DNA of 64,000 nucleotides from Bacteriovoracaceae bacterium (GTDB lineage Bacteria > Bdellovibrionota > Bacteriovoracia > Bacteriovoracales > Bacteriovoracaceae). The notes under the pieces were generated by a model. That model searched no databases, was not told the DNA's origin, and was given only the letters and a program-made list of their open reading frames with translations. The position numbers were made by a program, and so were the translations under genes. Shown here one piece after another: positions 34,347-61,133 of this stretch. Each line of letters begins with the position of its first letter. Position 1 is the first letter of the stretch. Location: the NCBI GenBank assembly GCA_003245675.1, contig QKCN01000084.1:21121-85120 (forward strand), in the 5' to 3' direction.

Positions 34347-35624
34347 ATGAATCGTCCAAATTATTTATCAAAATATAATTTTAACTGGGAAATGTTTGAC
34401 ATTCTCATTGGTGGACGTGCTGCACTGGATGCCCAACACTTTTTGGGGAAATTTGATGACCAAACACAAGTTCAAGACTTTTTAGAAGGTTATGGATTTG
34501 ACCCTGGTGATCTAGTTCAAAAAGCTGAACTCTTTGGACACTTTCAGGAGGCTATGCAATTCATTAGACGCTACTTTTTAAAAGAGGGTCATGATGAAGG
34601 TTTAGCGCTCTCTATTCCAACTGTTTTTTACACGATCACAGACATCAATGAGTTGCTTTTGATTGCCGTTCGTAAATCATCCTTTACCTCGTCAGGAGAA
34701 GACGCACTCTGGGCATCGATCATTTTGAAAGTCATGCACACCATTTTGCATGCTGATAAGGATTTACGGTACCGCTATTTTTCAACAATTCAGCAGCAGA
34801 TTTTTGACCGCTTTTATCGCCATATATCACGCGATGATGAAGGAAAACTCTTCCTACAAAATTCTCTTACCGGTGATAAAATTCGAATTGCCGGCTTTGA
34901 AACGAAGGCAAAAAAATCACGCGAAAGTATCATCGTTAAATTATTGCTCAAATCGGATTCTGTCGCAGAAGAACTTTTTGACAGAATTGGTGTTCGTATT
35001 ATTACTGAAAATAGATCAGACACCTTTCGCGTAATGAATTTTCTGCAAGATAGCTATGTCATAATGACCCACAATGTTCACCCTGGTCGCTCCTATAATT
35101 CTCTTCTTGATATCAACAAATTTAAAGCGCGCCATCACGAACTAATTAAAGAAGCAATTCGCAATGATATGCCCGAAGATGTTTTCTTAAAAAAAGTGGA
35201 AGAAGCTGCACATGCCTCTCTTCCTGACGAGCCATTCGATCTCGATAAGAATAAATATAGTGCGACTCAATATCGCTCTATTCACTTTACGGGAAGACTG
35301 CTTATTAAATACCGCAATCCTTTTATGGAAGAATTTAGGACCGTTAAAAGCTTTACGCGCGATTTAGAGCGAGAATCAGAAGAGCTCAAAGCAAACCCCA
35401 ATGTCAAAAAGCTTATTGATAAAATCAATGCCTTAGATACCTCTTCGGTTTCACGCGAAACTCGCTTTTTCTACCCCTTTGAAGTCCAGATTACAGATAA
35501 AAACTCACATGAAATCAATACCCAAGGTGAAGCTTCTCACCGGGAATACAAAAAAGCACAGCAAAAGTCGGCCATGAAACGTCTCTTTGCCCCGCTCTTA
35601 AGCTACTTAGAACGCCAAGCGTGA
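34347..35624 (+). CDS. Uncharacterised protein with a RelA/SpoT-like nucleotidyltransferase (synthetase) domain
   Basis: KKSRESIIVKL, FDRIGVRII, HPGRSYN, QYRSIH, FEVQITDKNSHEINTQGEASHREYK occur in the same order as RSH synthetase motifs. Confidence 0.8.
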   Translation: MNRPNYLSKYNFNWEMFDILIGGRAALDAQHFLGKFDDQTQVQDFLEGYGFDPGDLVQKAELFGHFQEAMQFIRRYFLKEGHDEGLALSIPTVFYTITDINELLLIAVRKSSFTSSGEDALWASIILKVMHTILHADKDLRYRYFSTIQQQIFDRFYRHISRDDEGKLFLQNSLTGDKIRIAGFETKAKKSRESIIVKLLLKSDSVAEELFDRIGVRIITENRSDTFRVMNFLQDSYVIMTHNVHPGRSYNSLLDINKFKARHHELIKEAIRNDMPEDVFLKKVEEAAHASLPDEPFDLDKNKYSATQYRSIHFTGRLLIKYRNPFMEEFRTVKSFTRDLERESEELKANPNVKKLIDKINALDTSSVSRETRFFYPFEVQITDKNSHEINTQGEASHREYKKAQQKSAMKRLFAPLLSYLERQA

Positions 35625-43889: not shown

Positions 43890-46800
43890 TTACTCGTCTG
43901 AAAAGCTTTCTCCTTCAATAAAATCGGAAATACTGGCATCAACAGTTTCTTTATCTAATTTTAGTTCAAGCTGATTTCTCATTTCGTCGAGATTTAAAAG
44001 ACGATCTTTTTTAGCCTCAGCACTATTCGCCTCAGCTTTTTTGCCTTTACACGCGCGCTCAACAACGGCTTGCTTGCGCATCAAATCTTGAAACCTCTTA
44101 CTCTCACTAAAAGGAATTGTATCGCAAGCCTTATTAGAAGCAGCTGAACCTCCAAGCTCATGACGACAATTAAGATCATTGATGAAGGTCTTTATTCTTC
44201 CAATATGCGCATCAACTAGTGGAGCAGAGTTAATAGCATTCGATTTAACTCTCTGTTTATGATCTTTTCTCCAATCATTATTAATGAAGGCACGTTCAGC
44301 TCTCAACTTCTCTCTCATTTCCTTAGCCGTTTTTTTATCTTCCTTACTTAACTCCTCTTCATTGAGTCCTGAAATTTCCTTAATATCTTTTCCAGAAAGC
44401 AAATAATCATCACGCTTAGGTTTGTTTTTTAGCTCTTTTTTGTAACTTGCATAATGGATAATGCTTTTAATTGTGTTGACACGCTCACGCTGCTGCTGCT
44501 CAACATTAAAAACATATGAATTTTTGACCATTGCAAAGCGATTTAACAACTCCAATTTTTCCTCTGGATTTAAATCCACACGCGCATTAACCTCTGCAGC
44601 CAATTTAGCAAAGTCAGCCTCAATTTCCGAAACCCGCTTTTGGGCCAAAGACTCTAAAGCTTCCAATTCTTTTTGCGCCTTGGACTGAAAATCTTTGGCG
44701 CGAATTCCTTTGTAGAAGAACTTATCGTCTTCTTCTTCATCACCTGTAATAAAGGGGTTTTCGCGATGGAGCAGAAGCTTTCCATCGACAATTCTCAAAA
44801 TTTTACCATTATATGGTGCACATCCCTTTAAATTTTTACAATCATCTTTGAACTGCTTGACGGTATCCAAGACATAAAGCGCATTACGCTTGTTTGCCTC
44901 TTTTTCTGAGTGCACATACGAAGTAACGATTTCCTTTAACTCCTCTCCAAAATTTTTCTTTTTCTTCTGAGCAGCCGCCTCAAGTGTGGCATCAATATAA
45001 TCTGGCGCAACAATCACCAATGTATCTCTCAAATCTGCCATTTGATATTCAAGAAAAAAGACACTATCCAAAATATGATTGAAGTATCCGCAAAGAGCAT
45101 CTTTTCCCTTCATTCCATTAAAAGAAAGCCCATCAAACTGAAGAGCTTTTTGCATATTAGCTGCAAGCTCAATTTTTTCCTGAATTTCTGTTTCAATTGG
45201 AGTAAGTGAATTAATCATACAAGCAAAGGTTTCTCTACTTTGATCATCCTTGGCCATAGCCATTTGCCCTTCCAGTCTCTTTTTAAGTGCATCTACAACA
45301 TCCTGAGAGAGCCCTGTATTTTTCTGGTAAACATTTGCAACTGCCAACATTTCATCAAATGTCGTTCCCGATTTTTCAAAGAAAGAAATCATTTTATCGA
45401 GTTCTGATTCTAATTTCCCAATTTTTTCTAGGTGTGAGTCATATTTGGACATAGCTGCAATAAAAAGCTTTTTCTGCTCCTCTAAGGTCATATTATTGCC
45501 TTTCAATTTGCGGATCAAAGCCCCCATGCCTTTAACGACTCCATCCAGAGCTAAATTTACAACCCCAGATGTCAAAGTCTTGATGGCAACAGCAGAGGCA
45601 AAAGTAAGAGCAGCCTTTTCTGGAGAGGAAAACATTTCCGCGAAAGTTCCCGTAACTGTTTTTACGTCTCCAGTGATTCCCTCGACATTTGAAGTGATGC
45701 CATCAACATTGCCAAAAAGTTTTTGAATGTCTTCAGGAGTAATTGCACCAGTCAAGTCATTAACATTTCCAATAATCGAATTAATTCCATCCATGTCAAA
45801 ATCTTTGAGGTACTGATCAACTGTCGCACTCGCCGACTCTAAGTTTTGCAAAGTTTTATTGATGCTCTCTTGATCGATATTATTGATAAAATCATTGGCT
45901 GAGGTAATTAAATTATTGGCATTACTTATTGTACTATTTAGCCCTTCCATATCAAACTGACTAACCTTTCCATCCAAGTCCTGCAAAAGAGTGTTCCCAT
46001 TTGCAAACATAGTATTAAGCTCTTGAACATCCAACTCCGAAATTTTTTCAAAACTCTGTTGAGCTGCAGCCATCGTGGAATTAAGTTGATTCATATCCAT
46101 TTGGGCCATCGTATTCATTGCATTTTCTATGGAAGAAAAAGTTGCATTCACTTGTTCAACATCCAGCTCAGACATTTTATTCATCGCACCCTCAATAGAG
46201 GCCATCATTGAATTAGCCTGCTGCACATCAAGATTTTCAAGGTTGCGCATTACCGATTCGACAGACTCTAAAGTTCTGTTCACCTGATTGGTATCAATAT
46301 TGGCAATATTGTCCGCAGCTCCTTGCATTGAGGCGAGAGTTTTATTTAATTGATCAGTATCAATGTTGCTAACATTACTCATTGCTCCTTCGGTTGCGGC
46401 CATGGTGGAATTAATCTGATCCATATCAAGTTTTTGGAAATGCTCACTTGCCGCCGTTACGCTCTTCGATGCTTCCACAATGGAATTCCAATCAACTGTC
46501 CCTAAAGTTGCCAAAGCCTGCATCCCAGCACTGTAGTCATCTGCCCCAGAACTTCCTCCAGAACCAGTTGTCCCTCCCCCAAGTGGCCATGGAAGAATCT
46601 GAGCATGAGCAGAAGAGATTAGAGAAATATTTTTCCATGCTTTATGCAAGTTTAAAGAAGAAATACTCTTAGGAAAACTATGATGGAGATCAAAAGAACG
46701 CTCCATCAAATAAGCACCAAGGATTTCTGTCTCTAAATTTAGCGTCTTTGCATAAGATTTGCGGTACATGGCCATAGCATAACGAATTGTTTTTTCTTCC

Positions 46801-47222
46801 TTGCGCACAAAAAGACGAACTATTCTTCGCGCCTTGCTCCAATAGGAATTATAAATAGTAATACCATCCTTTGAAACTTCGCGTGCTTGAATAAAAGTGG
46901 GAATTTGTAACAACTCAGCATATTCTTTTGCTAGATATGCAGGATCAAAATTTTTCCCCGAAAGATTAGGTATCACACCAAAAGAAATCGATCCTATATT
47001 CACAAAAGTGCCACGATAAAAAAGCATGCGATCTAATTTGGTTGCATATTCTTTTCCATTTTTTGTGTAAATGGTTTTGCCGGGATAGATAAGACAATTT
47101 TGCAAAAAATTTGATTCCTGCTTTTTGACAATTGTGAGGTCTGAAGTTTTCATCGCCAAGGCTGGAAAAGTAAATAGTAGAGTCCAAGCAAGAAAAACAC
47201 TCAAAATTTTTTTGCAACACAT
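43890..47222 (-). CDS. Large secreted protein with 22/26-residue helical repeats
   Basis: Signal MCCKKILSVFLAWTLLFTFPALA; repeats D-x-x-Q-x-N-x-[TM]-[ML]...; ATG at 47222 preceded by gaggag. Confidence 0.8.
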   Translation of the reverse strand: MCCKKILSVFLAWTLLFTFPALAMKTSDLTIVKKQESNFLQNCLIYPGKTIYTKNGKEYATKLDRMLFYRGTFVNIGSISFGVIPNLSGKNFDPAYLAKEYAELLQIPTFIQAREVSKDGITIYNSYWSKARRIVRLFVRKEEKTIRYAMAMYRKSYAKTLNLETEILGAYLMERSFDLHHSFPKSISSLNLHKAWKNISLISSAHAQILPWPLGGGTTGSGGSSGADDYSAGMQALATLGTVDWNSIVEASKSVTAASEHFQKLDMDQINSTMAATEGAMSNVSNIDTDQLNKTLASMQGAADNIANIDTNQVNRTLESVESVMRNLENLDVQQANSMMASIEGAMNKMSELDVEQVNATFSSIENAMNTMAQMDMNQLNSTMAAAQQSFEKISELDVQELNTMFANGNTLLQDLDGKVSQFDMEGLNSTISNANNLITSANDFINNIDQESINKTLQNLESASATVDQYLKDFDMDGINSIIGNVNDLTGAITPEDIQKLFGNVDGITSNVEGITGDVKTVTGTFAEMFSSPEKAALTFASAVAIKTLTSGVVNLALDGVVKGMGALIRKLKGNNMTLEEQKKLFIAAMSKYDSHLEKIGKLESELDKMISFFEKSGTTFDEMLAVANVYQKNTGLSQDVVDALKKRLEGQMAMAKDDQSRETFACMINSLTPIETEIQEKIELAANMQKALQFDGLSFNGMKGKDALCGYFNHILDSVFFLEYQMADLRDTLVIVAPDYIDATLEAAAQKKKKNFGEELKEIVTSYVHSEKEANKRNALYVLDTVKQFKDDCKNLKGCAPYNGKILRIVDGKLLLHRENPFITGDEEEDDKFFYKGIRAKDFQSKAQKELEALESLAQKRVSEIEADFAKLAAEVNARVDLNPEEKLELLNRFAMVKNSYVFNVEQQQRERVNTIKSIIHYASYKKELKNKPKRDDYLLSGKDIKEISGLNEEELSKEDKKTAKEMREKLRAERAFINNDWRKDHKQRVKSNAINSAPLVDAHIGRIKTFINDLNCRHELGGSAASNKACDTIPFSESKRFQDLMRKQAVVERACKGKKAEANSAEAKKDRLLNLDEMRNQLELKLDKETVDASISDFIEGESFSDE
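45648..46430 (-). repeat. In-protein tandem repeats: six 22-aa periods, then three 26-aa periods
   Basis: Anchor residues (L/I/M/F before D) at protein positions 270, 292, 314, 336, 358, 380, 402, 428, 454, 480, numbered from the ORF-track start at 47237. Confidence 0.9.
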
Positions 47223-47257
47223 AAATTGTCTCCTCAAAGGGGGAAATATCTCCTTTC

Positions 47258-54297: not shown

Positions 54298-57144
54298 TTA
54301 GAAAAACCCTATTGACACACCGAGTCTTCCGGGGGATTCCAGTGACCCATCTGACAATTTTTTGCGGTGAAGCTTCACCCCATAATCCAAAGAAATAGAC
54401 CCAACAGGGGTAATATACTTACAGCTAAGCCCCACGGAGGATCTAAATGAAAAAGGATTAAAGGAATCGAGATAAAGTTTTCCCATATCCAAAAATAAAC
54501 CGAGCGCAACCTGATCATTAAAGAAATAGCGCGGCTCAATTTTTAAATTATTAAAATACACTTTTTCAGTGACTGAGTGTTCCCTAATATCTTTACCGTC
54601 ACTCATACGATTAATTTCAACATCGTCAAAACCCCTCACATTATCAATTCCGGACAAGCGAAACACTTTAATGTTGGGAATACCAAATTCGTAGCCGTCA
54701 CTATCTGGTGCATTTTTTGATAAATTTTCAGCAAGTCCTGCGGCCCAAGAAATAGCCACCGTTCCACGAGAAAATGGAATATAAAAATAATTTCTCATCA
54801 CAACTCGGTAAAAATTAATTTCCCGATTACCCGAAGATTGAGAGAAAAAGTAGGGATGAGCATATTCAAAAGAAAGCGCGGATAAACCACCTTTAGATGG
54901 ATTTAAAACATCATTTCTCCAATCAAAAGCAATCCCTGGAACTAAAGCTCCAATGCGAAAGTCCCCTCTGTCTTCCTCTTGAGTTGCATCAAACTGAGAT
55001 ATGTATTCATATTGATGTTCCAAAGAAAGCGTAAACTTTTTACCTAGTTTTTTCGTCAAAAGATTTTGAATACGCCAAATATTGGCATCAAATGAATAAA
55101 ATCTTTTTCTCTTGAAATCAGCCCCAACGGTATAACTAGCAGGAAGTCCCCAAATATAGGGTTCGGAAAACATCGTGTTAAAATCATATTCTAATAGCGG
55201 ATTTTCTTCACTGCGACGTCTCGAATCAAGTCCCGAATAATTCAAACGTCGATTGGTTTCCCCACGCAATCCTAAAGTCTTGCCACGCCCTCGCCAATTC
55301 GTATTAGAAACACCTCCGGCTAAACGCAAGCCTAAATCAGTTCGATAGCCTGGAGCAACCTCTAACACAATGGAATGCCTTTCTTGCACAGATATTAAAA
55401 GATCTGTTCGTCCCTGAGAATCAATTGTTTCTTGAAGCGGAGTAATGAGGATATTAGAAAAAAGACCCAAATTTTCCAGCGATGATCTCAAATTTTGTAG
55501 AGATGAGGGAGTCAAAATATCTCCCTTTTTAAGCTCCACTTCTCTCACGATAATTTCAGGATCCGTTTTTTTGTTTCCAGAAAGTAAAATACTATTCAGA
55601 ATAATTTTCTCTCCTAATTCAATAGCAATACGCAGATGAACTTTCTGATAGTCGGCAGAATAAACAAGATTCTCTCCGACCTCAAGAGGTACAACTTGAG
55701 CAAAATAGTATCCTTGCTCTCTAATTTGTTGGATAAATAAAGAAATTTTTTCATCCAAAATAAGTGGATTGAAGATATCTCCACTTTTTAAAGAAAATTC
55801 TTTATGTAACTCGTCTGGCACACCTTCAAAGGAAACTTCATCTATTAAAACCTGAGGGCCCTCTGTTATTTGAAATTTTAATTCCACCCTGGAATTATCC
55901 GCAGAAAAAGCAGGATGCGATGCAAAGACCTTTACAAAAATAAAACCTTTTTCAACATACTTCTTTTTTAGATCATTTACAAAAACATCAATAGCGGCTT
56001 CATCAAAGTTTCCGTGCTGCACAATGTCTGAATCAAGATCATAAAATAAATCCTCCAATTCAGAACTTGCAAAAAAATTATTTCCCTCAAAAATGATTTC
56101 ACCAAGACTAGTACTCTTACCTTCTTGTATCGTTACAAAAAAGCGGCGTTCTTTTTCTTTGGCAAGATGATCATACCATTTTTCCTCTCGCACTTGAATT
56201 TGCGCACGAAATAAAGAACGGCGCTTATACATTTCATAAATCATATCACGCACAATCTCTGCGACATTTCCCTTTTTATATTCACGCAAGCTCTGCTGAA
56301 TGGCCCCCATTAACTGACTGCGATCAAATAATTTATTCCCAAAAAAATCAAATGCGAATTTTTCACCAGAACTAACGGCAAATAATAGGCGCACATGAGT
56401 ATCGTTAATATCCTCTTTCCCCAAAAATTCAAAAGAAGAATGATAATATCCTTGCTGAAAAAATTCGACTCGAATTCGATCTAGCTCGGTTTTAATTTGG
56501 GCAACATCGTATCCTTTACCAATAAAGGCTAAAATTCGCCGCTGCACCAACTGCTTCCAGCCTGAACCACCTGTTCCTCCTCTAAAAATAAGCTTGTAAT
56601 CCTTAATCAGAGTCTGCTTTCCTGGGGTAATATTGAATGTTAAATAAACTCCATCACTTGTCTTCACCTTTGAAACTTGAATTTCATGAGACCAAAATCC
56701 TCGGTCCTGTAAATAAGATGAAATGACTTCAAGAGTCTTATGGAGAATTCTAGGACGAAAAGATACTCCCTCCTGTAGCGACAAAAGATTTGAAGGCAAA
56801 ATGTCCTTCACTCCCCCTGCAACATAAACAATGTCTATCTTTTTAATAATGGGCAAGAAGCCAACCAAAATTTGTAATTGATATCTTCCGTGAACCTCTT
56901 TAACTTCATACGAAAAATAATCCATTGCATCTGGCTTCAGCAAAACATCTAAATGCTTACGGAAATGTAGCTCTGAAGAATACTTACGAATAAGAGAGCT
57001 CGCTCGACTGCGAAACTCATCACAGTCTTCACTTGGTTCGCACTTAATTATAACTTCTGAAATTGCAAATTCTGCGGCAAAAGTGAATTTGCCGGTTCCC
57101 AGAATAACAACCATTAAAAAGAAGAGCTGCAGCACTCTAATCAC
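54298..57144 (-). CDS. Omp85-superfamily outer membrane protein (BamA/TamA-like, several POTRA domains)
   Basis: POTRA-like repeats (DPEIIVREVELKKGDILTPSSLQNLRSSLENLGLF); barrel ending ISLDYGVKLHRK...GRLGVSIGFF. Confidence 0.9.
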   Translation of the reverse strand: MIRVLQLFFLMVVILGTGKFTFAAEFAISEVIIKCEPSEDCDEFRSRASSLIRKYSSELHFRKHLDVLLKPDAMDYFSYEVKEVHGRYQLQILVGFLPIIKKIDIVYVAGGVKDILPSNLLSLQEGVSFRPRILHKTLEVISSYLQDRGFWSHEIQVSKVKTSDGVYLTFNITPGKQTLIKDYKLIFRGGTGGSGWKQLVQRRILAFIGKGYDVAQIKTELDRIRVEFFQQGYYHSSFEFLGKEDINDTHVRLLFAVSSGEKFAFDFFGNKLFDRSQLMGAIQQSLREYKKGNVAEIVRDMIYEMYKRRSLFRAQIQVREEKWYDHLAKEKERRFFVTIQEGKSTSLGEIIFEGNNFFASSELEDLFYDLDSDIVQHGNFDEAAIDVFVNDLKKKYVEKGFIFVKVFASHPAFSADNSRVELKFQITEGPQVLIDEVSFEGVPDELHKEFSLKSGDIFNPLILDEKISLFIQQIREQGYYFAQVVPLEVGENLVYSADYQKVHLRIAIELGEKIILNSILLSGNKKTDPEIIVREVELKKGDILTPSSLQNLRSSLENLGLFSNILITPLQETIDSQGRTDLLISVQERHSIVLEVAPGYRTDLGLRLAGGVSNTNWRGRGKTLGLRGETNRRLNYSGLDSRRRSEENPLLEYDFNTMFSEPYIWGLPASYTVGADFKRKRFYSFDANIWRIQNLLTKKLGKKFTLSLEHQYEYISQFDATQEEDRGDFRIGALVPGIAFDWRNDVLNPSKGGLSALSFEYAHPYFFSQSSGNREINFYRVVMRNYFYIPFSRGTVAISWAAGLAENLSKNAPDSDGYEFGIPNIKVFRLSGIDNVRGFDDVEINRMSDGKDIREHSVTEKVYFNNLKIEPRYFFNDQVALGLFLDMGKLYLDSFNPFSFRSSVGLSCKYITPVGSISLDYGVKLHRKKLSDGSLESPGRLGVSIGFF

Positions 57145-60100
57145 TCAAATGTTCTCCTAAATTTAATATCAACACCCAAAGATCGCCCCGTATTATCATC
57201 TGTTGTTTCACTCCCGGTTTTCATTTCATAAATACCTGTCGCGATGACATTGTCTTTTAATTGGTAATTAAGGTTCATTTTTTGTTTTTGTTCATCTCCC
57301 CCCAGAGAAGAAGAAATCGTCATATCCATCTTCGTATTAATTTTTTTGCGCACTTCAACCTTAGTGACCGATCGAATCCCTGAACTAGAACCGTTTCCGC
57401 CCACACTACGCCCCTCTAAAAAACTATCTTCCGATTGATCAAACTCTGGCGCAAGCTTAAGTTTTAAACCAAAAAACTCATCTAATGTTTTATTTAAGCC
57501 AAATTGCTCTAACAACAAGGAGCCAACTCCTGCAGACGTTAAATTTTCCCGATCACGGTCCTGTAGGCCCTTAGAAATCTCAGAGGTATATCCGAGAACG
57601 AGCAAGGAAACAATTTCATTAGAAGGTAAAACGGGATCAGACTGCAGCTCCAACTTAAATCGATCACTAGGCCCAAATACTTTCAACAATATTTTATAAT
57701 CGGCAATCGTTGTTGAGGCTAAGAGATCAATTGTGGGATTTAGCTCACTGCCACCATTAAAAAATAGATCAGATTTGGAAACAACAAATTCATTCCCTTT
57801 AAAATATAAACGACTGTCTCCCGATATTGCAGAAAGTTTTCCTTTTAGACTAGGAGAATCAACAGAACCAATAACAGACATATCTCCCATAATTCCCATA
57901 TTCATCATGCGATTACGCACCTCGAGAGGGCGAGCTACAACAATTCGTCCATCAAGATTTAACAGTTGTGACAAAATATCTTGCTTTTTTTTGATTGGTA
58001 CATATTTGAGTTTTAGCTGACTTTGCTTTTGCTTAATAAATGCCTCCGGTTCATCATTAATTGATGCCCCTTGCAACGACAAATTTGTTTTAAGTAAATA
58101 TGGCGGAGCATTTCCTGACAAAAGAACCTCCCCCGAAAAAGAAACAGAAGAGTTATCTGCAATTTTATAAAGCATTTCATCAAGTTGTAGACTTAAGTTA
58201 ACTTCGGGCACAAGAGCAAGTTTCACTCGCCCTTGGGATGAAAACTTCCCTTGGCCCCAGACTCCATTCAAATTTTCAACAATTAAATTTTCATCTTTTA
58301 CTAACAGACGAAAATTTAAATCAGTGAATTCATCAGGCAATCCCGTATAAAACACATCTACCTTTCGCCCCTCTAATTGCAAAAGATAATCGTATTCTCC
58401 ATGCTCCTCCTCCAATACGAATCGGCCGCCGAGTTGTCCCCCAATACTGCCAATCTTTGGATTTAAAAACTCAAGAAAATCAGCTTGTATATTGCCTAGC
58501 GCTGAAATACTCAATTGTTTGGCCAAACGCCCAGAAGCCTCACTTGAAAAACGACCAAGCTCTCCGCCAAGGCTGATTTTCCATTTCTCGATCACTCCGT
58601 TATTTATGGCAATTCCATTTTCCTTCCCCTGCAAGGAGAGCTCCTTTCCTTTTTTTCGAAAAGAAAGCTGATATAAATTGAAAATCACATCCGAATGCGA
58701 AAGATCTTGAATATTAAACTTCCAACTTCCATCAAAAGAAGCTTCTCCCATTTTTCCATACTGCCATACATGCTCTCCAAAAAGGCTTGCTAACAACAAA
58801 TTCCAGTCTTTAACCTTACCATGATACTCTACAAAAGAATTCTTTTTCGCTCGCAGGTCAATGATTCCAGATGCTACAAAAATTTTATTCATCAATGTTG
58901 AGCTAAAACTAATAACTTTTTCATCAAGCCGTAAAGATATCTTTGATGGCTCAACTCGACGATGACCGACCTTTGTCTGTTCTAAAAAAAACTCAACATC
59001 GGACGACAAATTATTAATGAGCCCTGCCCCCTTTATACTTCCCCTTATTACGCCGCTAACATTTGGAATAAGACGTCGCAAGTAAGTAAAATCAGCTAAG
59101 TCAAATTTATCAAGATCAAAAACATAACTGACATCAAGAGGATTAGTATTCAAATTCAAAAGGGCATTTCCTCTAATCTTGCCCTGATTTTTACTCAGCA
59201 AAAATTTTTCAACATTAAGATGTCCATCCTTAAAATGAAAATCAGAATGGATAGAAGAAATAAATTCATCTCCCAGCAAAATATTTTTACCAGAGACCCC
59301 CCCTTTAATAACAAGATCCTCTTTAGAAACTGGTCCATAAATATGAACATCGGCTCCCCAGCTTCCCCAAATATTGTCAGGAACATTAGCCCCTTGAAAT
59401 ACGGGTGCAGCAACCAGCATAATGTCACGATAATCAGCGCGGGCCATAGATACAACCAAATCTAATGTTGTCTTTTTCTGTAAATTGACATCACCATGGA
59501 ATGTAATCGCTCCAGCACCAACTAGCCCTTGATATTTCTTTATCCGAATTAAATTTTGAGAAATATTATAATTGAAATCAATTTTACCAATTCCTAGAAA
59601 ATATTTGTTAAAACTAGCCTCTTTTAATTCCCCTCGCAAGCCAAGTTCAAGATCCTTTCCTGCCTGCTGCTCGACAAGAAGGTCTAAAACGCCCCTTCCT
59701 TTGATATCTAATCCGACGATAGGTCCAAGCTCTTCAAGATTAACAAGTGATTTGTCGGCTTTTATAGAAAAACCTGATTCTCCAATTACACCTTGTACAT
59801 TAAAAACATTCTCTCCTGCCTTTAACCAGCTCCCTATAAGAATTGACTTGTCCTTGGGCTCGATTGAAATTTGATTTAAAGAGACTTTTGGATTTTGAAT
59901 AATAGCATCACCGCGAGATGATGCCCGAAAAACAAAATCAGAAATATCAAACCCCTGCTCGCTGGAAATCTTCCAATGCTTTTTATTTTTTGCCAAAACA
60001 AAATCTCCGTTGACACTTCCTTCAAGGATACTTAGCTTCTTGCCGATATTTCCTCGCAACTCTCTAAAATTCACATCCGATATAGAAAAACGATACTCAC

Positions 60101-61133
60101 CTTCTGTCATAAAATCGTTTTTGCTGAAATCATATAGTGCAACAGAAGGCATTTGGACTTTTCCATTTTTTCCCAACCGAAGAGCAAGATCTGACCAAAA
60201 CGAACCATCCTTTGTGAAAAAGCGTGAATGCAAGGACGGTATATATTCTTTGTTGTAAGATAAATCTTCTACGGATATTTCTCCCCTTAAAGAAGGAAAT
60301 AAATCTCCCGCTTTCTTCTCTAGTTTGACCGTAGAAACAGCGATCCCCGAAATATCCTCCCCAAAAGTTGAAAGCTGCCTTAAATTGAGCAAAACCTGCA
60401 ATTTTAAATCTGCACCTACATCTCTAAGAGATGTTCCTTTTCCAAATATCATTCCATCCATTTGCAGTGAAGATTCTCGTGAAAATACAGAGAGGCCCTG
60501 CATTTCTATATGATCGGCAAAGACTTGGGCTCCTCCTTTCAATCCGTTGATTTCACCAAGATAAGGTATATTCAACTGCAAATTGTTTCTAATTTTAAAT
60601 GTACAATCTAGTGAATTAATTTGATTTTTTGAGCTAAATTGATAAACAAAAAGACTTCCCTTTTTATTCATATCAATACTGACATCAGAAATAATAAGTT
60701 CATGGATGGGCAACCCCTGTAGCTGAGCAATTATTTGCTGAGTTACTGCTTCGACTCCTTTAAATTCTTGTGCGGGGGCTCCCGTCTCTTGCTCTTTCTG
60801 CAAGAATACGCCCCCCATGAGATGTACTTTACTTAGATCAAAATTTTGGAATCGCCCTATAAATGGATTGAATTCCACACGAAGCGCTTCGAGATTTAAG
60901 TTCCAATTTTTATGATAAAGATTAACTTTACTTAACTCAATGCCAGGAGGAAACAAGCTTAAATCCATTTTGCTAAAAGAGACCTCTGCTTGATGGCGAG
61001 ACGAAAAATGCTGAGTGATCTGCTTCGAAATAAATGTCGAAAATTGACGAGAACTCAACACCTGCCATAATACACTTACGGAAATGATAACGAGAGATAA
61101 AAATAGTAATAATACTGAATTCAAAGATCTCAC
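57141..61133 (-). CDS. TamB/DUF490-like translocation and assembly module protein
   Basis: N-terminal TM; long beta-rich body; C-terminal GSVDSPSLKGKLSAISGDSRLYFKGNEFVVSKSDLFFNG...VSLLVLGYTSE...LLLEQFGLNKTLDEFFGLKL. Confidence 0.88.
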   Translation of the reverse strand: MRSLNSVLLLFLSLVIISVSVLWQVLSSRQFSTFISKQITQHFSSRHQAEVSFSKMDLSLFPPGIELSKVNLYHKNWNLNLEALRVEFNPFIGRFQNFDLSKVHLMGGVFLQKEQETGAPAQEFKGVEAVTQQIIAQLQGLPIHELIISDVSIDMNKKGSLFVYQFSSKNQINSLDCTFKIRNNLQLNIPYLGEINGLKGGAQVFADHIEMQGLSVFSRESSLQMDGMIFGKGTSLRDVGADLKLQVLLNLRQLSTFGEDISGIAVSTVKLEKKAGDLFPSLRGEISVEDLSYNKEYIPSLHSRFFTKDGSFWSDLALRLGKNGKVQMPSVALYDFSKNDFMTEGEYRFSISDVNFRELRGNIGKKLSILEGSVNGDFVLAKNKKHWKISSEQGFDISDFVFRASSRGDAIIQNPKVSLNQISIEPKDKSILIGSWLKAGENVFNVQGVIGESGFSIKADKSLVNLEELGPIVGLDIKGRGVLDLLVEQQAGKDLELGLRGELKEASFNKYFLGIGKIDFNYNISQNLIRIKKYQGLVGAGAITFHGDVNLQKKTTLDLVVSMARADYRDIMLVAAPVFQGANVPDNIWGSWGADVHIYGPVSKEDLVIKGGVSGKNILLGDEFISSIHSDFHFKDGHLNVEKFLLSKNQGKIRGNALLNLNTNPLDVSYVFDLDKFDLADFTYLRRLIPNVSGVIRGSIKGAGLINNLSSDVEFFLEQTKVGHRRVEPSKISLRLDEKVISFSSTLMNKIFVASGIIDLRAKKNSFVEYHGKVKDWNLLLASLFGEHVWQYGKMGEASFDGSWKFNIQDLSHSDVIFNLYQLSFRKKGKELSLQGKENGIAINNGVIEKWKISLGGELGRFSSEASGRLAKQLSISALGNIQADFLEFLNPKIGSIGGQLGGRFVLEEEHGEYDYLLQLEGRKVDVFYTGLPDEFTDLNFRLLVKDENLIVENLNGVWGQGKFSSQGRVKLALVPEVNLSLQLDEMLYKIADNSSVSFSGEVLLSGNAPPYLLKTNLSLQGASINDEPEAFIKQKQSQLKLKYVPIKKKQDILSQLLNLDGRIVVARPLEVRNRMMNMGIMGDMSVIGSVDSPSLKGKLSAISGDSRLYFKGNEFVVSKSDLFFNGGSELNPTIDLLASTTIADYKILLKVFGPSDRFKLELQSDPVLPSNEIVSLLVLGYTSEISKGLQDRDRENLTSAGVGSLLLEQFGLNKTLDEFFGLKLKLAPEFDQSEDSFLEGRSVGGNGSSSGIRSVTKVEVRKKINTKMDMTISSSLGGDEQKQKMNLNYQLKDNVIATGIYEMKTGSETTDDNTGRSLGVDIKFRRTFE

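Follow-up and report, generated by a model that had tools for sequence, protein, structure and literature searches.

The locus considered here raises the question of what a second protein of the RelA/SpoT (RSH) synthetase type does in bacteria that already possess a canonical Rel. The phylum, taken here to be Bdellovibrionota, comprises predatory bacteria and their relatives; most of those sampled carry two such proteins, namely the canonical Rel and a protein of the TIGR04562/TIGR04552 family, and starvation signalling plausibly governs a predator's choice between hunting, waiting and growing. The gene lies in a stretch of 64,000 nucleotides (the window) and encodes, from an ATG start, a protein of 425 aa whose features are collected in Table 1. 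The preliminary description had confined the feature to window 34884-35561, which corresponds to residues 180-405 and covers only the C-terminal half of the open reading frame; the motifs inside that span are real, and all of those quoted were found in the translation at the positions given (D212, Y309, E379).

It had also missed that the protein falls in an already named family. Over its full length the protein scores 386.7 bits against TIGR04562 (cut-off 140) and 364.5 bits against TIGR04552 (cut-off 125), both of them NCBIfam models of the 'subfamily' type with no function stated, and the same family was found in every representative searched. Judged by these scores, it belongs to a family that has been named but not characterised. 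A literature search found no description of function for the family, no biochemistry on its proteins, and no description of their RSH catalytic-site mapping or of a G-loop insertion; the name TIGR04562 was not found, and TIGR04552 was found only as a frameshift entry (PMC9888234).

Table 1. Window coordinates of the gene and of the features of its product
Feature	Position	Strand	Basis or remark
Whole gene, TIGR04562/TIGR04552-family protein with RSH synthetase domain	34347..35624	+	TIGR04562 match, residues 13-414
N-terminal helical domain, residues 1-180	34347..34886	+	Without known family
H131-x3-H135-x3-D139 motif in the N-terminal domain	34737..34763	+	Conserved in 74/74, 74/74 and 72/74
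Donor-site basic helix K187, K190, S194, K198, K202 (RSH [R]xKxxxSxxxK, first Arg replaced at 188)	34905..34952	+	Conservation; SaRelP/FaRel2 equivalents
D212-x-x-G215-x-R217, putative metal-binding Asp and adenine-stacking Arg	34980..34997	+	Invariant in 74/74; Pfam alignment, fold
N251 to N302, G-loop with helical-hairpin insertion	35097..35252	+	36-52 residues in all members; predicted helices 256-272, 277-290
End of G-loop: N302, Y309 (putative acceptor-base aromatic), H313, F314, R317	35250..35297	+	Conservation
Second, lineage-restricted insertion between strands 4 and 5	35313..35459	+	Long in 60/74, short in 14/74
E379-x-Q381-x-x-D384...G394-x3-H398-x2-Y401-K402, putative catalytic Glu motif	35481..35552	+	Long-Rel spacing, 73/74 members, 19/20 RSH proteins

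The sole Pfam domain in the protein is RelA_SpoT (PF04607), matched at residues 190-403 with 37.1 bits (cut-off 27, E 4e-9), and the RelA/SpoT homology originally proposed from motifs has passed the profile search suggested with it. Homology to the RSH synthetases is practically certain. Across 35 diverse family members, PF04607 recovers just 18 at E <= 0.01. The stand-alone architecture was likewise borne out, as Pfam finds no HD, TGS or ACT domain; a degenerate HD hydrolase at the N-terminus was considered and rejected, hhalign against the HD domain of the phylum's own Rel giving a probability of 0.07%. When the family profile was compared with a long Rel profile, the match had a probability of 31.7%, which rose to 59.6% once the insertion columns were left out, with D212, the G-loop and E379 then aligned as expected. 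The weak match of the whole family is explained by its insertions.

An AlphaFold2 model built from the protein and 15 relatives has a pLDDT of 72 and a pTM of 0.67, with poor confidence at residues 190-212 and 393-414. The top Foldseek match of the full-length model in the PDB is Staphylococcus aureus RelP with pppGpp (probability 0.98, E 0.043, TM-score by target 0.50), and almost all of the best 35 matches are RSH proteins. A core model of residues 118-425, which brought no gain in confidence over the full-length model, places RelP/YwaC first (probability 0.99, E 0.025), and all of its best 40 matches are RSH proteins. RSH synthetases dominate the top matches in this check, which the preliminary description had suggested, and it is the consistency of the lists, single E-values being weak (about 0.025-0.043), that argues for an RSH synthetase fold in the predicted structure.

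Residue conservation was counted over 74 family members, with equivalents set by motif and spacing; in RelSeq numbering, we take K243, K251, K304 and H312 to be equivalent sites. Mean identity across the phylum is near 35%, yet K190, K198, D212, G215, R217, E379 and Q381 are each found in all 74 members and S194 in 71; D212 and E379 had been singled out beforehand as a conservation check. The spacing ExQ-x12-G-x3-H-x2-Y[KR] around the Glu is shared by 73 of the 74 members and 19 of 20 RSH proteins, and it occurs in 19 of 298 proteins of the neighbour set, matching the count of family members there. The ATP donor of FaRel2 is held by R64, K66, S70, K74, R77, R95, E145, Q147 and G93, with D90 on Mg2+ (PMC11782079); the corresponding set in SaRelP is R78, K80, S84, K88, R91, R112 and H190, with D107 and E174 on Mg2+ and Y151 in the G-loop (PMC5794853), and the RelSeq equivalents used were R241, R269, D264, E323 and Y308 (PMC7983052). 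Of the residues that contact ATP or Mg2+ in the FaRel2 and RelP structures, eight are invariant in the family or conserved to at least 96%, and a dead or repurposed scaffold is therefore hard to reconcile with the data.

The donor side departs from the canonical form in one of the two arginines that sandwich the donor adenine. R217 is invariant; the other, which is R241 of RelSeq, R78 of SaRelP and R64 of FaRel2 in characterised RSH synthetases, is replaced at position 188 by Ser (32 of 74), Pro (19) or Ala (16), next to an invariant K187. This counts against an active synthetase, and because one sandwiching arginine is missing, membership of the RSH superfamily is claimed here as domain homology and not as a canonical active site. 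The equivalent of FaRel2 R77 is mostly His, with the adjoining K202 kept in 72 of 74. The loss of this canonical stacking arginine and of the QIRT motif would suit a catalytically dead RSH-fold protein that serves as a regulator or alarmone sensor, but such a protein sits poorly with D212, E379, Q381, R217, K190 and K198 being invariant at that mean identity, and we regard it as very improbable. The protein is probably an active ATP pyrophosphotransferase. ATP would occupy the conserved donor site with K190, S194 and K198 on its phosphates and R217 and E379/Q381 around its adenine, Mg2+ would be held by D212 and E379, and the beta-gamma pyrophosphate would be transferred to a hydroxyl group on an acceptor that stacks against the aromatic residue at 309 in the enlarged helical G-loop.

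On the acceptor side, the change of QIRT to QITD and both large insertions described at the outset are real. The interval N251-N302, predicted to form a helical hairpin, measures 36-52 residues in all 74 members, whereas in the canonical Rel of the phylum KDYI and NxYQSLH are 5 residues apart. The G-loop Lys of PKxNGYxSLH is replaced by Ser or Thr at 305; position 313 is Gln in 47 members, His in 14 and Lys in 13; and the R-T of ExQIRT has given way to Q-x-x-D, with D384 in 71 of 74. Position 309 is Tyr in 67 members, Phe in 6 and His in 1, so that the aromatic (Tyr/Phe) is kept in 73 of 74, although Tyr itself, proposed earlier as a conserved residue, is not strictly kept. Since 313 is mostly Gln or Lys and 309 sometimes Phe or His, the QYRSIH of the 425-aa protein, which has Tyr at 309 and His at 313, looks more canonical than the family is: its resemblance to GYxSLH is present, but partly peculiar to this protein and its closest relatives.

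With the G-loop Lys and QIRT replaced and the GYxSLH His mostly changed to Gln or Lys, acceptance of GDP or GTP is not predicted by the sequence, and these nucleotides specifically are possible acceptors that we put forward only tentatively. That the product is a nucleotide alarmone nevertheless seems probable on balance, the most likely acceptor being a purine nucleotide. It is conceivable, if doubtful, that the family represents a phylum-wide housekeeping pyrophosphokinase whose acceptor is not a guanosine nucleotide (RNA or another metabolite), with the helical G-loop insertion and the new N-terminal domain conferring specificity and control, that is, a non-toxic, non-ppGpp use of RSH. If the acceptor is not GDP or GTP, the known range of the RSH fold in normal cells would be widened.

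The label 'small alarmone synthetase' is apt in so far as the protein is a stand-alone synthetase without HD, TGS or ACT; strict identity with that class is not established, because the G-loop acceptor site is rebuilt in every member. RelP/SAS2 (YwaC) and RelQ share with it the stand-alone synthetase domain and the predicted fold, and the equivalents of SaRelP K80/S84/K88, D107, R112 and E174 are kept. The family differs from them in the replaced equivalents of SaRelP R78 and R91, in the length of its G-loop insertion and in its less strictly kept Tyr, while the 425-aa protein has an additional N-terminal domain of about 180 residues and roughly twice the length. From the long RSH proteins (Rel/RelA/SpoT, including the 729-aa Rel of the same genome), with which it shares the Glu-motif spacing with YK at its end, it is set apart by the missing HD hydrolase, TGS and ACT domains, by the replaced QIRT and by the G-loop, where Rel has its short KDYI-to-NxY interval.

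The N-terminal region had been called unfamiliar, and it remains so: its approximately 180 residues match no Pfam family, nor any PDB entry by way of the family profile. Y49-G50, P91, H131, H135 and Q151 are invariant in it, and G23, D28, W122 and D139 nearly so; since such residues are held there, the domain is probably more than a linker and may control the activity of the protein.

Gene order was compared among the clades of the phylum. In the source genome, the gene diverges from pgpA, behind which lie recA and recX; downstream it is followed by a pseudouridine synthase gene on the opposite strand and by alaS. The divergent pgpA/recA arrangement recurs in the source clade and several others, and the family gene precedes rimO in another. 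The earlier statement that the gene sits among housekeeping genes holds for the source clade (recA, pgpA, alaS), but elsewhere in the phylum the adjacent genes encode a PlsC-type acyltransferase or Fe-S/FAD oxidoreductases, or include rimO. In several Bdellovibrionia the family gene abuts or overlaps a downstream PlsC-type acyltransferase gene, and a putative lipoprotein gene lies upstream in several (L079, L080, L089-L092); in another clade, genes for an FAD-type and an Fe-S oxidoreductase lie downstream, overlapping or adjoining the family gene (L081, L082, L084, L086, L088), and the first gene of this pair has no Pfam match. A fixed pathway partner was rejected on the same comparison, recA/pgpA being kept in some clades only and replaced in others by these genes or a phosphorylase gene. 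Phospholipid genes (pgpA, plsC) are the sole recurring theme; they are different genes, and their recurrence may be due to chance.

The neighbourhoods bear on two further kinds of acceptor. A pyrophosphokinase or nucleotidyltransferase acting outside nucleotides and RNA, for example on a lipid precursor, a sugar or a cofactor, would fit the rebuilt acceptor loop common to all 74 members and the phospholipid neighbours of two clade groups (divergent pgpA, and the downstream PlsC-type acyltransferase of several Bdellovibrionia); these lipid genes vary by clade and are missing from others, however, and the aromatic at 309 in 73 of 74 members fits base stacking, which makes such an acceptor quite improbable. 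A tRNA-type acceptor, which we consider unlikely, would explain an acceptor site without the G-loop Lys and usually without the His of the (p)ppGpp synthetases; in the tRNA-targeting FaRel2 the acceptor phosphate patch is reduced as well (PMC11782079). A large substrate could be accommodated by the enlarged G-loop together with the N-terminal helical domain, and alaS and a pseudouridine synthase gene are neighbours in the source clade. Against a tRNA-type acceptor, other clades do not share the alaS/rluE neighbourhood, the best structural matches are RelP/YwaC with no tRNA-targeting toxSAS among the 50 matches listed, and neither an antitoxin nor a fused neutralising domain accompanies the protein.

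This last point extends to the toxSAS group as a whole (FaRel, FaRel2, PhRel2, CapRel, Tas1). Equivalents of FaRel2 K66, S70, K74, D90, G93, R95, E145 and Q147 are present in the family and the acceptor patch is altered in both; the family differs in having no antitoxin gene, no fused pseudo-zinc-finger and no convincing PADLOC match to CapRel or defence models, and in being single-copy and vertically inherited as against the mobile distribution of toxSAS. The earlier remark that there is no antitoxin partner agrees with the neighbourhood comparison, in which no recurrent small gene was found beside family members, and RelA_SpoT is the only domain in the protein. With no partner gene, no convincing PADLOC match and a single copy phylum-wide, a toxin-antitoxin or phage-defence role was rejected.

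The TIGR04562 cut-off is exceeded in 254 of 286 genomes of the phylum, mostly in single copy, and in none of 14 control genomes. Many of the genomes lacking the family are small, at 1.2-2.0 Mb, and one of these, of 2.0 Mb, is 100% complete; some others are of ordinary size. PF04607 scores above its cut-off in 37 of 38 genomes searched, and each of these 37 has a long RSH (in one case split in two pieces at contig ends), including those where the family is absent. The source genome's own Rel, which the preliminary description had missed, is canonical, with HDVVED and EIQIRT. In pairwise comparisons of 15 genomes, the family and Rel diverge in parallel (Mantel r 0.85, reached by 0 of 5000 permutations), which fits vertical inheritance. 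Phylum-wide vertical inheritance, mostly in single copy, is in turn more in keeping with a cellular role than with a toxin, as had been suggested. The reading we prefer, and hold to be reasonably probable, is of an active stand-alone ATP pyrophosphotransferase with an RSH synthetase fold, inherited vertically in the phylum beside the canonical bifunctional Rel; the data show the family, fold, residue conservation, insertion and distribution, as well as dispensability in one strain, and from them we infer activity, donor, acceptor and N-terminal control. It would act as a second, conditionally used and non-essential synthetase of alarmone type whose product Rel could hydrolyse, and the long RSH of each PF04607-positive genome could supply that hydrolase.

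Experimental evolution bears on the question of essentiality. In Bdellovibrio sp. NC01, all six evolved lines were better at surviving starvation, and a one-base deletion in the 'TIGR04552 family protein' DOE51_RS08710 exceeded 75% in line B (PMC9888234, Table 1). One of the sampled genomes (G147) was taken as NC01, the ancestral bases of that table matching at the printed positions in 20 of 20 cases. The deletion, at position 1,817,535, lies within the family gene, in the codon equivalent to residue 257 of the 425-aa protein. The frameshift precedes the G-loop Tyr (Y309) and the catalytic Glu (E379), and the gene is therefore dispensable in this strain, including for predatory growth. Its loss may itself have been the benefit, or may have hitchhiked with the other mutations of line B. 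Most genomes of the phylum have kept the gene, but a line adapted to starvation carries it in disrupted form and a number of small genomes lack it; as such it offers a direct handle on the switch between hunting, waiting and growing.

An origin in phages or plasmids was rejected, no relative being found in viral contigs or plasmids apart from a lone 'phage' match. That record (GenBank MW495066.1 115540-132625, 'Microcystis phage MaAM05, complete genome') carries a family member together with glyS, secD, secF, gatD, mtgA and acpS, and is probably a bacterial chromosome contig of unplaced lineage deposited as a phage. Its relative is 27-39% identical in the main segment to all phylum families searched, which suggests an occurrence beyond the sampled families. 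An extra, more ordinary RelA_SpoT protein is present in two genomes of the phylum, as L117 (G229:C1:616569-616883) with 74.8 bits and L118 (G217:C95) with 67.5 bits, the latter with two internal stop codons. In L055 (G157:C180), the family open reading frame is open for 630 residues, about 200 beyond its relatives, upstream of the usual start. Elsewhere in the window, a 1115-residue open reading frame on the minus strand (43890-47237), with no Pfam match at E <= 1e-5, adjoins a Lon protease gene, and two minus-strand open reading frames with Omp85/POTRA and TamB domains (54298-61133) overlap by 4 bases as an outer-membrane TAM-like pair.
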